Below are positions 32,714 to 47,353 of a stretch of DNA of 54,869 bases, piece by piece; the first letter of the stretch is position 1; each line of letters starts with the position of its first letter. The position numbers and the translations under genes are program-made. A model generated the notes under the pieces. The model did not search any database. It was given only the letters and a program-made list of their open reading frames with translations, and had not been told where the DNA came from. The stretch comes from Prevotella sp. (GTDB lineage Bacteria > Bacteroidota > Bacteroidia > Bacteroidales > Bacteroidaceae), in NCBI GenBank assembly GCA_017428055.1, contig JAFRRN010000060.1, forward strand, positions 1 to 54,869. Direction: 5' to 3'.

Positions 32714-32755
32714 CTTCATATCGTTTATCAATTGTAAATCATACATTTATTGGTG

Positions 32756-32763
32756 CAAAGGTA
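32756..32763 (-). promoter_or_regulatory. Promoter -7 box for cysS
   Basis: Reads TACCTTTG on the minus strand. It is the mirror copy of the plus-strand box at 32786-32793 within a 12-base inverted repeat. Confidence 0.65.
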
Positions 32764-32785
32764 ATGTTTTTTTAAGAAAAAACCG

Positions 32786-32793
32786 TACCTTTG
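32786..32793 (+). promoter_or_regulatory. Promoter -7 box for the CoA-transferase gene
   Basis: TACCTTTG on the plus strand. TACCTTTGCACC (32786-32797) is the exact reverse complement of 32752-32763. The predicted leader of about 148 bases contains the octamer palindrome element. Confidence 0.65.
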
Positions 32794-32826
32794 CACCGAA
32801 ATTCAGATAACATACATAACTTTATG

Positions 32827-32934
32827 GAATTCAGGAGTTACAAGGAGTTCAAGAGTTCATGAGTTCGGACATTAGCCTTTTTCCGTTGGAGGAGTATTGT
32901 CTGAACTCCTGAACTACTAAACTCCCGAACTCCC
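32827..32934. repeat. Octamer palindrome element, copy A (5' leader)
   Basis: Left arm: five words on the theme GAGTTCAG (8 bases each, the second lengthened to 10) at 32827-32868. Core about 32869-32900, beginning ACATTAGC. Right arm: four inverse words (CTGAACTC, CTGAACTA, CTAAACTC, CCGAACTC) at exact 8-base period, 32901-32932. Homologous to the element inside miaB at 46637-46735. Ends 13 bases before the CoA-transferase ATG. Confidence 0.85.
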
Positions 32935-32947
32935 AAAAAAGAATAAT

Positions 32948-34459
32948 ATGGCTTATAGAAGAATTACGGCACTTGAGGCTGCCGAAATGATTAACGACGG
33001 CGATATGATGGCGCTGTCAGGTTTTACTCCTAACGCCAATCCCAAGGCAATCTTCCGTGAACTTTCCAAGCGGGCAATCCGCCTCCACGAACAGGGCATA
33101 CCCTTCCAGGTGGGTGTGTTGACGGGCGCATCAAGCTGCCAGAGTGTCGAGGGCGACATGGCTGCCGCCAAGGCATTGAAGTTTCGCGCACCGTTCTCCA
33201 CCAACAAAGACTTCCGTACCCATACCAATCTGGGCGAGGTAGACTATGAAGACATGCACCTCGGTCACATGGCGGAGCGTTTGCGCCGTGGCTTCTATGG
33301 CGAGGTGGACTGGGCTGTAGTCGAGGTGAGCGACATGGAAGAGGGCGAAAACGAATGCAAGGCATTCCTCACTTCCGCTGGCGGCATCGTGACAACCATT
33401 GTTCGTTTGGCAAAGAAGATCATCATTGAGCGTAATTCATTCCACAATCCCAATTCAAGATATTTGCACGACACGTGGGAACCACGCGAGGTATGGGAAG
33501 ACCGCGAGGTGATGGACATCCACTCTCCCTACGACCGCATCGGCAAGGACTATGTGTCTATCGACCCGAAAAAGATCGTCGGGGTCATCGAGAGCAATAT
33601 CCCCGAAGAGGCCCGTGCCTTCAAGGAACCCGACGAGGAGATCATGAGCATCGGTCATCACGTGGCAGAACTCCTTGCCAACGACATGAAAGTGGGGCGC
33701 ATACCCAAGCAGTTCCTTCCCATCCAGAGTGGTGTAGGCACGACGGGCAACGCCGTATTGAAAGCTTTGGGTACAAGTAAGCTCATCCCACGGTTCAACG
33801 TCTATTCAGAAGTGGTGCAAGACGCAGCAGTCAATTACATGTTGGAAGGACGTATCGGATATGCCTCGGCTACCGCCATGACCGTCACCAACGAGGCTTT
33901 ACAGATGGTCTACCAAAACATGGACTATTTCTCCAAGCACCTCACTATCCGCCAGAGTGAGATTGCCAACTCCCCAGAGGTGATCCGACGCCTTGGTGTC
34001 ATTGCCATCAACACCCCACTTGAATGCGACCTCTATGGCAACGAGAACTCATCCCACGTATGTGGGTCGGCCTTGATGAACGGCATCGGCGGCTCGTGCG
34101 ACTATGAACGCAATGGCTACATTTCCATTTTCACCACTCCATCAACGGCAAAAGGCGGTAAGATCTCCGCCATCGTCCCGATGTGTTGCCATGTAGACTC
34201 CACCGAACATGACGTGGACATCATCGTGACAGAACAAGGTGTGGCTGACCTGCGTGGTAAGGGACCCGTGCGACGTGCTTGGGAAGTGATTGAAAACTGC
34301 GCCCATCCCGACTACAAACCCCTGCTCCGCGACTATCTCAACCATATCGCCCCGATGGGACATGAGCCGCAACACATGCGGGCAGCCCTTGCCTTCCACG
34401 ACACATACCTCCGCAAGGGCGACATGCGACTGACAGACTTCAGCGAATACCTCAAATAA
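32948..34459 (+). CDS. Acetyl-CoA hydrolase/transferase family protein (succinyl-CoA:acetate CoA-transferase type)
   Basis: 503 residues, cytosolic. Moves CoA between acyl groups, probably succinyl-CoA and acetate; in Bacteroidota this connects the succinate/propionate branch to acetate release. Shows the class I CoA-transferase layout: N-terminal MMALSGFTPNANPKAIF, VGVLTGASS, mid-region QSGVGTTGNAVLKAL, FNVYSEVVQD where the Glu is the expected catalytic residue, and IIVTEQGVADLRGKGP with a C-terminal MGHEPQ segment. Length is standard. The leader carries the octamer palindrome, and a heptamer palindrome follows the stop. Confidence 0.93.
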   Translation: MAYRRITALEAAEMINDGDMMALSGFTPNANPKAIFRELSKRAIRLHEQGIPFQVGVLTGASSCQSVEGDMAAAKALKFRAPFSTNKDFRTHTNLGEVDYEDMHLGHMAERLRRGFYGEVDWAVVEVSDMEEGENECKAFLTSAGGIVTTIVRLAKKIIIERNSFHNPNSRYLHDTWEPREVWEDREVMDIHSPYDRIGKDYVSIDPKKIVGVIESNIPEEARAFKEPDEEIMSIGHHVAELLANDMKVGRIPKQFLPIQSGVGTTGNAVLKALGTSKLIPRFNVYSEVVQDAAVNYMLEGRIGYASATAMTVTNEALQMVYQNMDYFSKHLTIRQSEIANSPEVIRRLGVIAINTPLECDLYGNENSSHVCGSALMNGIGGSCDYERNGYISIFTTPSTAKGGKISAIVPMCCHVDSTEHDVDIIVTEQGVADLRGKGPVRRAWEVIENCAHPDYKPLLRDYLNHIAPMGHEPQHMRAALAFHDTYLRKGDMRLTDFSEYLK

Positions 34460-42325: not shown

Positions 42326-45300
42326 ATGAAACGCTTCGTCTTTACACTTGCGCTCTTTTGCGCCAATCATTTATTGTCCATTATTCATTGTTCATTAGCG
42401 GCTGCACAAGCCCAAATAGTGCAGGAATACAAGATGTCCGGCCCCTACGAGGTGGTTGCCCGTGACGGACAGTACCGTAGTTCAAAGGCGGGTAGTGAGC
42501 GCGACATGAAAGCGGCACTCGACTTTGCACTGAAAGGAGAAACGGAAAATGCCTTGAAGATTGTCAATGCTTACGCCACGACCCTGCAACGGTTTGATGG
42601 TCATGACGCACCACTCTGTACCATCCAAGCCTATTGGTTAATAAGGGCTATGACCCTTTTGAAAAATGATGAATCCGTCGGTATGAAAGCCCCTCTACAG
42701 ACAGGTTCCTCACTGTTCGATCTTCATTCCTCATTCATTAGACGCGCCATCCTTCCAACCATCGACCAGTTTGAGGCGAATAGCCCTTACGCCAACGGCA
42801 ATTGGGGAGCCATCGTGAACAGATGCCGCATGGCTTGCGCCATTTTCCTCGAAGATTCAATACTCTATCGGAAAGCCGTGGATTATTACTTGAATGGCTA
42901 CGACAACGGGGCATTGCCCTGGTACATCGGTGAGACGGGGCAATGTCAAGAGACGGGGCGCGACCAAGGACATGCGCAGTTGGGCTTGGAGGCGATGGCT
43001 GACATCTGCGAGTTGGCGTGGCAGCAAGGCGATGACCTTTGGAGCGCACTCGACAATCGACTGATGAAAGGTTTTGAATATTCCGCTCGCTACAACTTGG
43101 GGTACGATGTTCCCTTTGAGACATGGACCGACTGCACGGGACTGTATAACGACTGGAATGAGCCTGGAGAAATGGGGCGAGGAAAGCTGTGGGACATCTA
43201 CCAAAAACCCTACAATCATTATGTGAAGGTGAAAGGGCTGTCAATGCCTTACACGGAAAAGGTATTGAACTTACAAGCAAAGGCGGAGCGAAAAGGTGAG
43301 AGCCGTGAAACACAAGCACCTGGCGTGAAGGAAGGGGTGAAATTGCACCAACTATTTACCTATCCCGCTCCTGATGGTGCTCCGTTGAAACACGACTACG
43401 ATGTGTTCATCCAACCACGTGGAGGTAAGGAATGGACAAAGATTGACACCTATATGGCAAAAGTCAATGCCTCCATCGGTAATAAGAAACACGCCATCAG
43501 TGAAATCTCATACGCATTCTTCGACTTCACGGGGGATGTCTTCGTGCGAGTGGTTTGCAAAAACAAGAAGTTCAAGCAAGCCCGAATCCGTCCCGACTAT
43601 CGCGGGACGATTGCAAACATACGGAATGACTCCACGGTACAATTCCTATTGTTCCAACCCGAAAACGTGAGTGTCGAGTTTGATGGTAACATCACCAATA
43701 ACCTATTGCTTTTCACATCGAAGCCTACCGTCACGATGGAGGAAGCCAAAAAGCAAGCAAAGAAAGACAAACGGCAATTCGTTTATTATGCCCCTGGGTT
43801 CTACAGCGAAGACACGATTCGCATTGCTTCGAACACAACTGTCTATCTCGCTGGCGGTAGTTATTTCACTGGAACATTCGCCATTGAGGATGCTCATGAC
43901 GTGAGCATCCTTGGGCGAGGCATTGCTCGCCCCGTCAGAGGTTACGAGGGGTGTCATATTTACCGTAGCCGAAACGTGTTGGTTGACGGATTAATCCTCA
44001 ACACCTGCCCCGTGGGGGAATGTGATGGCGTGACCCTGCACGATGTGCGTAGCATCTCGCATCCAGGATGGGGCGACGGGCTGAATGTATTTGCATCCTC
44101 GAATGTGTTGTACGACCGCGTGTTCTGCCGTAATAGCGATGATTGCACCACCGCATACGCCACGCGCAAAGGCTTCAACGGTTCCACCCGTCATGTACGG
44201 ATGCGTAACTCCATTCTTTGGGCAGACGTTGCGCATCCCATCTTCATTGGCATTCACGGCAATCCCGAAGTGGGTGACACCATTGAACACCTTGTATATG
44301 AGAACATAGACATACTGGGACAGGCTGAGCCACAAGTAGATTATCAAGGTTGTCTCGCCATCAATTGCGGTGATGGCAACGTGGTGCGTGACGTACTCTT
44401 TGACAACATCCGCATTGAGCAGATAGAAGACGGTTGCATCACGCAAATAAAGGTGGGCTACAACCAAAAATACTGCACGACTCCAGGCAAGGGTGTAGAG
44501 AACATCACATTCCGTAATGTCCGTTATCACGGCAGCACACCAAATCTCTCTATCATCAATGGCTACGACGCCAACCACTCCGTACGCAACGTAACCTTTG
44601 AAGGACTGAAAATCAACGGACAGGTCATCAGCGACGATATGGCCGACAAGCCACGTTGGTATGCTACTGCCGACTACGTACCTATGTATGTGGGCAACCA
44701 TGCCAGCGGCGTAGTATTCAGCAAGGAAATCGGACAGTTCAATGTGAATCAACAATTGGCTTATTGTGGAACGCAGGTGGATCGTGCCTTGGAGGCTTTG
44801 CGCCCCTACGACTTCACGATGATGCCGAGGAATATATTGGAGGGACAGCAGAAATGGAATCTGCGCAAAGCCTGTGCGGAGGAATGGTGCTCGGGGTTCT
44901 GGCCAGGCATCCTATGGATGGACTACGACTACACCCGTAGCAAAGCCGTGATGAAAGCGGCAACGGGTTACACCCAAGCACTCAGTTTCCTGCCATCACA
45001 ACGCATCTTCGACCATGACTTGGGCTTCATTACCATCAATTCGTTCCTGAAAGGATATGAACAGACAAAGGATGTGCGATACAAGCAACTCGCCCTGCAA
45101 GCAGCCGATACCCTTGCCACCTTATATAATCATAAGGTAGGCACAATGCTCAGTTGGCCACGCCATGTGAAAGACTATGGTGGGCACAACACCATCATGG
45201 ATAACATGATGAACTTGGAACTGCTTTTCTGGGCGGCTCAAAATGGCGGTTCACAACGTTTGCACGACATTGCTGTCCGTCATGCTGAAACAACCATGCG

Positions 45301-45868
45301 CAACCATTTCCGTCCCGACGGCTCCTGTTATCATGTAGCGGTATATGACACGCTCGACGGGCATTTCATCAAGGGAGTCACTCACCAGGGATATGCCGAT
45401 TACTCCATGTGGAGCCGTGGGCAGTCGTGGGCCATCTACGGTTATACCATGGCGTACCGATACACTCATGACCAGCGTTTCCTCGACTTCGCCCAAAAAG
45501 TCACGGAAATCTATTTGAAACGACTTCATGAGACCAGTGACGACATGATACCTCTTTGGGATATGGACATTCCTATTGGTGACACCCCATCCCTCAACCA
45601 CAAAGACGCTTCTGCGGCTTGTGTCGTGGCGAGTGCCTTACTCGAACTATGCCAATATGTGAAAGACGGCGACTACTACCGTGAGCAAGCCGTCCAGATG
45701 CTTCGCGACCTGAGTACCGACCGTTACCAAAGCCTTAACAAAAATGTTTCCTTCCTGATGCACTCCACGGGTCATCATCCCGCAGGATCAGAGATAGATG
45801 CCAGCATCGTCTATGCCGACTACTATTATATAGAAGCATTACTCAAGTTAAAGAAATTACAACCATGA
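42326..45868 (+). CDS. Three-part enzyme: alginate-lyase-like toroid, GH28-like beta-helix, GH88-type hydrolase
   Basis: 1180 residues. Signal peptide of ~28 residues, its codons formed partly by a heptamer array. Residues ~40-330: alginate-lyase-superfamily toroid related to the first gene of the operon (ETGQCQETGRDQGHAQLGLE pairs with PSGQMREMGRDNVHGGLTLG). Residues ~335-800: beta-rich region, then a right-handed beta helix resembling GH28/GH49-type enzymes (FVYYAPGFYSEDTIRI, GDGLNVFASSNV, CRNSDDCTTAYATR). Residues ~810-1180: GH88 unsaturated glucuronyl hydrolase-like barrel (DHDLGFITINSF, DNMMNLELLFWAAQ, MWSRGQSWAIYGY). Lyase and GH88 activities are sequential on uronic polymers, so one polypeptide may combine both steps. 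Which domains are active cannot be told from sequence. Confidence 0.82.
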   Translation: MKRFVFTLALFCANHLLSIIHCSLAAAQAQIVQEYKMSGPYEVVARDGQYRSSKAGSERDMKAALDFALKGETENALKIVNAYATTLQRFDGHDAPLCTIQAYWLIRAMTLLKNDESVGMKAPLQTGSSLFDLHSSFIRRAILPTIDQFEANSPYANGNWGAIVNRCRMACAIFLEDSILYRKAVDYYLNGYDNGALPWYIGETGQCQETGRDQGHAQLGLEAMADICELAWQQGDDLWSALDNRLMKGFEYSARYNLGYDVPFETWTDCTGLYNDWNEPGEMGRGKLWDIYQKPYNHYVKVKGLSMPYTEKVLNLQAKAERKGESRETQAPGVKEGVKLHQLFTYPAPDGAPLKHDYDVFIQPRGGKEWTKIDTYMAKVNASIGNKKHAISEISYAFFDFTGDVFVRVVCKNKKFKQARIRPDYRGTIANIRNDSTVQFLLFQPENVSVEFDGNITNNLLLFTSKPTVTMEEAKKQAKKDKRQFVYYAPGFYSEDTIRIASNTTVYLAGGSYFTGTFAIEDAHDVSILGRGIARPVRGYEGCHIYRSRNVLVDGLILNTCPVGECDGVTLHDVRSISHPGWGDGLNVFASSNVLYDRVFCRNSDDCTTAYATRKGFNGSTRHVRMRNSILWADVAHPIFIGIHGNPEVGDTIEHLVYENIDILGQAEPQVDYQGCLAINCGDGNVVRDVLFDNIRIEQIEDGCITQIKVGYNQKYCTTPGKGVENITFRNVRYHGSTPNLSIINGYDANHSVRNVTFEGLKINGQVISDDMADKPRWYATADYVPMYVGNHASGVVFSKEIGQFNVNQQLAYCGTQVDRALEALRPYDFTMMPRNILEGQQKWNLRKACAEEWCSGFWPGILWMDYDYTRSKAVMKAATGYTQALSFLPSQRIFDHDLGFITINSFLKGYEQTKDVRYKQLALQAADTLATLYNHKVGTMLSWPRHVKDYGGHNTIMDNMMNLELLFWAAQNGGSQRLHDIAVRHAETTMRNHFRPDGSCYHVAVYDTLDGHFIKGVTHQGYADYSMWSRGQSWAIYGYTMAYRYTHDQRFLDFAQKVTEIYLKRLHETSDDMIPLWDMDIPIGDTPSLNHKDASAACVVASALLELCQYVKDGDYYREQAVQMLRDLSTDRYQSLNKNVSFLMHSTGHHPAGSEIDASIVYADYYYIEALLKLKKLQP
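42366..42400. repeat. Heptamer array within signal-peptide codons
   Basis: Words ATCATTT, ATTGTCC, ATTATTC, ATTGTTC, ATTAGCG follow at exact 7-base period and encode the hydrophobic core HLLSIIHCSLA of the signal peptide. Confidence 0.6.
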
Positions 45869-45940: not shown

Positions 45941-47353
45941 TCAATCTTCAACCTCTCCTAACAAAGTGGCTGATGTGGAGCGAGTAATCTTGACACGCAC
46001 TATTTCGCCGGCATGGTGGCAGCCCTTGTCGAACACCACCATCTTCCCTTGCTCGGTACGCCCGCAAAGCTGGGCGCGGCTGCGTTTACTATATCCCTCA
46101 ACCAACACATCAAACTCCTTCCCCTCATCACGCTTGTTGGCGATGGCAGACATCTCCGTCTGCAATTGGATGAGCTCATTAAGCCGTCTTATCTTCACCT
46201 CCTCAGGAACGTTGTCGGGGAGGTGCTTGGCAGCATACGTCCCCGGCCGCTCGCTATACTTGAACATGAACGCCGAGTCATATCCAACCTCACGCATCAA
46301 AGAAAGCGACAACTGATGGTCTTCTTCCGTTTCATCGTGGTAGCCCACGAAGACGTCAGTAGACAATCCGCAGCCCGGGATAATCCTACGGATGGCAGCC
46401 ACCCGGTCGAGATACCATTCACGGGTGTATTTGCGGTTCATCAACTTCAATATCTTGTTAGACCCACTCTGCACAGGCAGGTGTATCTGCTTACACACAT
46501 TGGGCATGTCTGCGATGACTTGCAACGTCTCGTCGCTCATATCCTTGGGGTGCGACGTGGTGAATCGCACTCGCATGTCTGGCACGGCTTCTGCCACGAG
46601 GCGCAGAAGTTGCGGGAAGGCTATGATATTGTTAGGGAGTTCAGGAGTTTCAAGGAGTTCAGGAGTACAGACATTAGCATTTTTAGTCATCTCACTATTG
46701 TCAGAACTCCTTGAACTTCTACACTCCTTAGTACCCCAAGAATAAGAGTTGACATTCTGCCCAAGGAGTGTCACCTCCTTGAATCCCTTTTCCTGTAAGT
46801 CGCGTACCTCGCGGAGGATGCTCCCCACGTCGCGGCTCCTCTCCCTTCCCCTCGTGTAAGGCACGATGCAATAATGGCAGAAATTGTTGCATCCACGCAT
46901 GATGCTCACATAACCCCCGATGCGCGACGCGCCCATCCGCTGGGGCAGCACGTCGCGATACGTCTCCGTTGTGGACAGTTCGATGTTCATGGCTTTATGC
47001 CCTAACTCCGCTTGCGCTATCAAGTCGGGGAGGCTAAGATAAGCGTCGGGGCCTGCCACAAGGTCTGCGTGGTGGTTTTCCATCAAGTCATCCTTCACCC
47101 GTTCTGCCATACAACCCAAAACGCCAATAATCAATCTCCCCTTCTTCCGGCGTAGGGCATCCAACTCTTCCAGCCGGTGGTAAATCTTGTTCTCGGCATT
47201 CTCCCTGACGGAACAGGTATTCAAGAATATCGCGTCTGCCTCCTCTTGGCTTCCGCAGGTGTCATAGCCCGCCATTTTCATGATTGAGGCGACCACTTCA
47301 GAGTCTGCCACGTTCATCTGGCAACCGTATGTCTCGATGTATAGTCTTTTCAT
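45941..47353 (-). CDS. miaB: tRNA-2-methylthio-N6-dimethylallyladenosine synthase, with repeat-derived insertion
   Basis: Radical-SAM methylthiotransferase that modifies A37 of tRNAs reading UNN codons. 470 residues. The N-terminal UPF0004 domain binds one iron-sulfur cluster (C11, C47, C81); the radical-SAM motif CNNFCHYC gives C155, C159, C162; the C-terminal TRAM domain ends the protein. Residues ~207-241, between VNSYSW and FPQLLRLV, are a serine-, glutamate- and proline-rich insert encoded by an octamer palindrome element (46637-46735). The frame is kept, and both flanks match the family without gaps. Follows PAP2 by 8 bases in a three-gene minus-strand unit. Confidence 0.95.
   Translation of the reverse strand: MKRLYIETYGCQMNVADSEVVASIMKMAGYDTCGSQEEADAIFLNTCSVRENAENKIYHRLEELDALRRKKGRLIIGVLGCMAERVKDDLMENHHADLVAGPDAYLSLPDLIAQAELGHKAMNIELSTTETYRDVLPQRMGASRIGGYVSIMRGCNNFCHYCIVPYTRGRERSRDVGSILREVRDLQEKGFKEVTLLGQNVNSYSWGTKECRSSRSSDNSEMTKNANVCTPELLETPELPNNIIAFPQLLRLVAEAVPDMRVRFTTSHPKDMSDETLQVIADMPNVCKQIHLPVQSGSNKILKLMNRKYTREWYLDRVAAIRRIIPGCGLSTDVFVGYHDETEEDHQLSLSLMREVGYDSAFMFKYSERPGTYAAKHLPDNVPEEVKIRRLNELIQLQTEMSAIANKRDEGKEFDVLVEGYSKRSRAQLCGRTEQGKMVVFDKGCHHAGEIVRVKITRSTSATLLGEVED
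46637..46735. repeat. Octamer palindrome element, copy B (inside miaB)
   Basis: Left arm on the plus strand: GAGTTCAG, a 10-base variant, GAGTTCAG, GAGTACAG (46637-46670), then ACATTAGC as in copy A. Right arm about 46700-46735, more degenerate. Relative to copy A (32827-32934) the left arm lacks exactly one octamer, while the 10-base second word and the core start are conserved. Length about 99 bases, a multiple of three. Confidence 0.85.

Follow-up and report, generated by a model that had tools for sequence, protein, structure and literature searches.

A dispersed palindromic element read in frame within miaB of a Prevotella genome, and elements of similar design across the genus

The stretch of Prevotella sp. 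DNA analysed here, referred to below as the window, is 54,869 nucleotides long and corresponds to contig C49 of a genome of 4.22 Mb in 106 contigs (below, the home genome). Its miaB gene contains an in-frame palindrome built of short repeated words and their inverse, and a second copy of the same palindrome stands between genes elsewhere in the window (Table 1).

Table 1. Features of the two element copies and of the host gene in the window.
Feature	Positions	Strand	Basis
Second copy, between genes, shortly 5' of an ATG at 32948	32826..32934	+	BLAST, R1
Core of second copy	32868..32901	+	Alignment
miaB host gene, ORF of 470 aa	45941..47353	-	ORF and PDB match to MiaB (E=2.1e-214)
Palindromic element lying in frame within miaB (35 codons, residues 207-241)	46631..46735	-	Absent from 7mjv
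Word array, four GGAGTTCA-type words of 8-10 nt each	46635..46669	+	
Core GACATTAG, variable loop, CTATTGTC	46670..46702	+	Alignment with 23 other home-genome copies
Inverted word array	46703..46735	+	Inverted arm pair

When MiaB was compared by HMMER with the solved structure from B. uniformis (7mjv), the match broke at query residues 206/242, equivalent to positions 222/228 of the chain. The extra segment is therefore residues 207–241, encoded by 105 nt at 46631–46735. The first-pass annotation had described a ~99-base element of words and inverse words that adds ~35 residues to MiaB; the design and the number of residues hold, and the comparison with 7mjv corrects the length. The insert contains an exact 12-nt inverted arm pair (46649–46660 and 46704–46715), and the covariance model of the element (R1, see below) matches at 46634–46738. 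In an AlphaFold2 prediction of MiaB from 38 sequences (mean pLDDT 71.5), pLDDT is below 50 at residues 208–240; it is also low at 11–14 and below 50 at 125–172 and 363–377, so that the model is only fair. The simplest reading is that the insert would form a tolerated, disordered loop.

The intergenic copy is, as had been noted, the same element with one extra octamer, the additional word being located in the left arm. Sequences matching GGAGTTCAGGAGTT with at most two mismatches occur nine times in the window against 0.28 expected, and eight of the nine lie within the two copies. The predicted RNA folds of both copies were more stable than 200 of 200 shuffles (z −4.9 and −5.4). Since R1 was built from 24 home-genome copies including these two, their scores with the model are given by construction. 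A search of the window against Rfam at the gathering threshold returned two tRNAs and no other match. Upstream of the second copy, at 32752–32797, there is an inverted repeat (GGTGCAAAGGTA../..TACCTTTGCACC) that presumably resembles the paired promoter -7 motifs of Bacteroidales. Tandem ATTCATTGTCCATT words at 42369–42397, at the start of the ORF 42326–45868, are possibly another word array.

The element is dispersed through the home genome. A BLAST search seeded with the second copy gave 80 rows, and R1 gave 98 rows at E≤1 on both strands, which collapse to 47 places once five weak or tail places are left out; three of the 47 have E values of 0.01–0.03. Members of this family (family 1) consist of an octamer array (GGAGTTCA)n, the core GACAWTAG, a variable loop, CTAWTGTC and inverted octamers. 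The core is conserved among the home-genome copies, the loop varies, and so do the number and spacing of the words. In many copies the two core halves differ by T/A, which gives the element an orientation.

Twelve of the 47 places lie in frame within 11 long ORFs, which stay open to either side of the element, and all twelve are read from one strand and in one frame of the element, roughly GVQEFRSSDNS-x-NVCTPELLETPEL; the copy on contig C7 and the second of two copies in a GH2 protein have mainly one arm left. The hosts, named by Pfam for the ten ORFs scanned (a thirteenth case, a small ORF on C78, was not counted), are MiaB, ArgS, an acyltransferase-3 protein, a 4Fe-4S protein with the copy near its C-terminus, a PFL-like glycyl radical enzyme, a DUF4450 protein, the GH2 protein with its two copies, GH92 and GH13 proteins, a hybrid two-component protein and an FdtA-type protein. 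Pfam domains span the insert in six of them (ArgS, acyltransferase, PFL-like, GH2, GH92 and GH13). For MiaB, ArgS, the glycyl radical enzyme and GH13, the HMMER match to a solved relative is interrupted at the insert, which these relatives lack; the GH92 match passes through the insert with ~11 gapped residues, and an insert-free relative is not clear there.

The other 35 copies lie outside any spanning ORF. A TGA directly follows the core in none of 11 ORF copies versus 20 of 28 other copies (Fisher p=4.5e-5), the remaining eight places, one of them an ORF copy, having been dropped for want of a recognisable core; the contrast is partly expected, because the ORF copies were found as open frames. 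Most of the other copies would bring a stop codon, so that those in genes are a filtered or specialised minority. Some copies outside genes end the upstream ORF with a stop codon of their own: the one at C65:53623 (L121) extends the C-terminus of an ORF that we take to be MurB-like, its TGA serving as the stop. Inspection by eye of the copies outside spanning ORFs suggested that the one on C105 may truncate a gene. At C42:25621–25745 (L153) the core between the octamer arms is replaced by a palindrome of another kind, GTAGGGGCG..CGCCCCTAC, as though an element had inserted into a second one, and octamer-bearing ORFs at two loci (L150 and L160) also encode the repeat peptide SSFLIHHSSF or similar.

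We then consider the insertion site in relatives. The best 80 of 583 MiaB relatives have record titles that name Prevotellaceae or Bacteroidales, and many are titled as MAGs. In none of these 80 was the family-1 insert seen by eye, nor did R1 match inside their miaB genes. The outcome that the first-pass annotation had named as fatal to its claim, the same insert conserved in all related MiaB proteins with no further genomic copies beyond chance, did not occur: the insert is not seen in these 80 relatives, and the home genome has dozens of copies. The linker between LGQNVNSY and FPxLLR is variable: across these 80 sequences and the window's own it ranges from 4 to 74 residues. Forty-five of the 81 linkers, the window's included, were long enough for a repeat test, in which 25 contained tandem words with a period of 6–10 and seven contained an inverted repeat (p<0.01; ~0.5 expected in each case). 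The words differ from species to species. In one linker (L039) a run of four AGGAGTGC octamers leads into GACATT, which looks like half of a related element. For argS, 89 of 100 genus genomes gave matches; among the best 30 loci, one of which is the home-genome gene itself, the site in the 29 relatives holds an ordinary linker in 24 and other repeats in five (L185, L186, L187, L189 and L199), as scored by eye. The MiaB and ArgS loops are therefore hotspots, in which other species hold other repeats.

The repeat in another miaB linker (L044) has relatives in the genome from which that linker comes (G101) and in five of 11 other genomes searched, and these define family 2. Copies with both halves have the core GAGTTTGCTACCGC, a loop and GCGGTAGCAAACTC, with a word unlike that of family 1. 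All 11 distinct two-half copies of this first set lie in frame within long ORFs and are read in a single frame, VECRTENVEFATA-x-AVANSTLNTLNSKL. A follow-up with a second model (R2) and a sweep of the genus added 43 high-scoring copies from three genomes, of which 23 are in frame, always the same one (3/18 in G034; 12/14 in G041, two of the 12 being near-identical; 8/11 in G097), bringing the overall count to 34 of 54. Two of the 20 copies that are not in frame keep that frame open through both arms; in the remaining 18 there is a stop, mostly in the left arm, or the frame is lost in the loop. Hosts of family 2 include what we take, by eye, to be MurF, TopA, GuaA, PurL and ArgC-like proteins. 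In the home genome, too, R2 gave 17 rows.

For 11 in-frame sites of G041, five relatives were searched with the flanking sequence, and 30 of the matching loci were read. For nine of the sites at least one relative has a short linker of 6–20 residues; since the DNA of the relatives is only 67–88% identical, the junctions of these empty sites are not fixed to the base. One of the other sites (L306) is occupied by other repeats, of two kinds, in both relatives seen (G034 and G051), and one (L308) has no match in the relatives. At L300 a relative has a short linker, yet family 2 is found there in G097. A further word-array palindrome, with AGTGACTC octamers around GTTTATTTC .. GAAATAAAC, was found in G042 (L340:2281–2468) and has the same design with another core.

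Similarity of the two arms was also compared within and between copies. Arms were more alike within than between copies in G053 (8/8 copies, p=0.001) and in G041 (13/13, p=0.01), although the latter result could come from word sub-types alone, because G041 holds two of them in family 2. There was no excess in the home genome (38 of 47 copies usable, p=0.11), G034 (18/18, p=0.78) or G097 (10 of 11 usable, p=0.95). As the excess appears only in some genomes, we do not use the mirrored arms as proof of hairpin copying.

Among 100 genus genomes including the home genome, R1 was found in 53 and R2 in 67 at E≤1e-3; 39 genomes had both and 19 neither. In 197 of 198 genomes of the order, the home genome being excluded, R1 was found in three (best 41 bits) and R2 in 12 (best 62 bits) at E≤1e-4. 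Genus and order were thus searched at different thresholds, and the filters applied in all four sweeps were stricter ones, at which weak matches are missed. One distant-match search of phage records and one of plasmid records gave no match. A de novo hairpin scan, which covered 568 kb of sequence surrounding miaB in 80 records, found six ungapped hairpins, three with tandem words, against none in a block-shuffled control; the scan is too strict to measure abundance.

Direct signs of movement come from one relative, G045, represented by a single contig. There the family-1 core lies within elements of 162–172 nt with imperfect terminal repeats, ACTGAACTTTCGCAT and GCGAAACTTGA. Of 23 loci scanned, 15 had both element ends, and exact duplications of 6–7 nt border seven of the 15 (mean 0.5 with re-paired flanks), from which it follows that a composite containing the family-1 palindrome has transposed in G045. 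In G009 and G028, three copies have comparable ends on their flanks. The terminal motif, allowing one mismatch, accompanies five of 31 copies from other relatives and, within 120 nt, none of the 47 in the home genome, whose copies were tied to neither a transposase nor a terminal repeat. G045 also contains a 248-nt element (L245) with the terminal motif of the 171-nt composites and another interior. The description of the element as mobile is supported by dispersal and by insert-free homologues, whereas the act of transposition is seen solely for the G045 composite.

We consider it probable, at roughly 0.8, that the miaB insert represents a dispersed palindromic element, selfish and non-autonomous and ~100 nt long, whose frame-keeping copies survive in genes. 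Dispersal, the fixed frame, homologues lacking the insert and the use of the same sites by other repeats are what the analysis shows directly. The genus holds at least two families of one design, in which a 7–8 nt word, repeated in mirrored arrays, surrounds a short core that is conserved and a loop that varies. Copies would land in many places, spread presumably by transposition; in genes, only those would survive that have a length divisible by three, lie in a stop-free orientation and frame, and meet a tolerant protein loop. The host would then translate the insert as a disordered, probably near-neutral loop of 35 residues.

A purely local origin, by slippage that expands short words in place, would suit the many MiaB linkers made of plain tandem words without a core, as well as the unequal number of words in the arms; but in each genome dozens of loci have one core and one word set in common, a pattern that separate slippage events do not produce, and we regard this origin as extremely unlikely. 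A function of the extragenic copies as RNA hairpins or terminators, with the in-gene copies as accidents, is also very unlikely. The predicted folds are very stable indeed (six copies folded, z −4.9 to −18.2), and the preponderance of home-genome copies outside ORFs, some of them providing stop codons, would agree with such a function. However, covariation was found in none of 10 predicted pairs across 24 home-genome copies, the two tRNAs are the only Rfam matches in the window, presence varies widely among the genus genomes, and 20 of 25 fetched family-2 copies of G041 and G097 lie in genes.

Other alternatives concern the means of spread. The palindrome might travel as a passenger in MITEs with terminal repeats that a transposase mobilises in trans, a route compatible with the selfish element proposed above; the G045 composites with their duplications and the similar ends in G009 and G028 speak for it, but the motif is missing around all 47 home-genome copies and 26 of the 31 from other relatives, and the in-gene copies are the palindrome alone. 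We regard this route as unlikely. Equally compatible with a selfish element, and quite unlikely in our estimate, is movement as REP/REPIN-like elements by a RAYT-type Y1 (HUH) transposase. In its favour, the palindromes are short and numerous, Y1 transposase matches occur in 55 of 100 genus genomes, family-2 rows correlate weakly with Y1 counts (rho 0.20, p 0.046), and in G045 a Y1 gene lies between copies of the outer terminal motif (TTTCGCATGT) that also bounds the 171-nt composites. Against this, family 1 and Y1 counts are uncorrelated (rho 0.007, p 0.95), G009 and G079 have 35 and 33 rows without a Y1 match, and neither element was found at any of 30 fetched Y1 loci (E≤1); no link to a RAYT was found. 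The Y1-type gene of the home genome (C28:373–714, L322) sits among another palindromic repeat, GATGCCGTAGGCATC, unrelated to the octamer element. Finally, what is copied might be the word and not a fixed sequence, each lineage rewriting both arms to a new word of 7–8 nt, through a templated polymerase or through repair with the hairpin as template, and keeping the design and the protein loops that it occupies. We hold this to be unlikely; if true, the elements would spread without a classical transposase and would keep supplying essential enzymes with new disordered loops.

The in-frame copies also carry a warning for annotation: an unusual repeat in a conserved protein may be mobile DNA that is translated. 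The best-known coding palindromes are, to our knowledge, those of Rickettsia and Wolbachia. For Prevotella or Bacteroidales our searches of open-licence papers found no description of this family, in line with the first-pass annotation; CGTC repeats have been reported in Bacteroidetes (PMC3733652), and the accessible text of that paper does not describe the Prevotella elements. Inverted repeats in protein genes are also reported as coding palindromes of Nematomorpha (PMC6649704, from its accessible part), those being of animal mitochondria. As short non-autonomous repeats the Prevotella elements resemble MITEs, including BrickBuilt of Porphyromonas gingivalis, and the G045 composite, with terminal inverted repeats and target duplications at 7/15 loci, is MITE-like. 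BrickBuilt, however, is strictly intergenic according to the text available of PMC10969869, whereas Prevotella copies also lie in genes, and those of the home genome lack the G045 terminal motif. With REP/REPIN elements and their RAYTs they share small palindromes in many copies, and REPs within genes are likewise reported in the portion seen of PMC3733652, but REPs are given as 20–40 bp against ~100 nt here, and the fetched Y1 genes are not flanked by the elements.

The closest likeness is to the Rickettsia palindromic elements (RPEs), as the first-pass annotation had suggested. As presented in the accessible portions of three papers (PMC2229807, PMC3767692 and PMC10969869), RPEs are palindromes in unrelated conserved genes, read in one fixed frame; where different RPE groups share a locus, PMC3767692, in the same part, sees either a hotspot or the divergence of a single insert. 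To judge from these sources, RPEs and their Wolbachia relatives share with the Prevotella elements a palindrome of ~100–150 bp (47 places of ~100 nt in the home genome), several families, a conserved peptide, in-frame insertion in conserved genes (12/47 home-genome copies; 34/54 of family 2) and the occupation of the same loci by different groups. The likeness is one of design. The arms in Prevotella are tandem words of 7–8 nt, and the host phylum is another, the nearest MiaB records being titled Prevotellaceae and not Rickettsia or Wolbachia. By this comparison the Prevotella elements appear to work like RPEs, without being filed as such. One Bacteroidales genus thus has at least two families of coding palindromes, and the repeats in the same MiaB and ArgS loops differ between species, which makes the process known from RPEs, including movement, peptide production and new enzyme loops, testable outside obligate intracellular bacteria.
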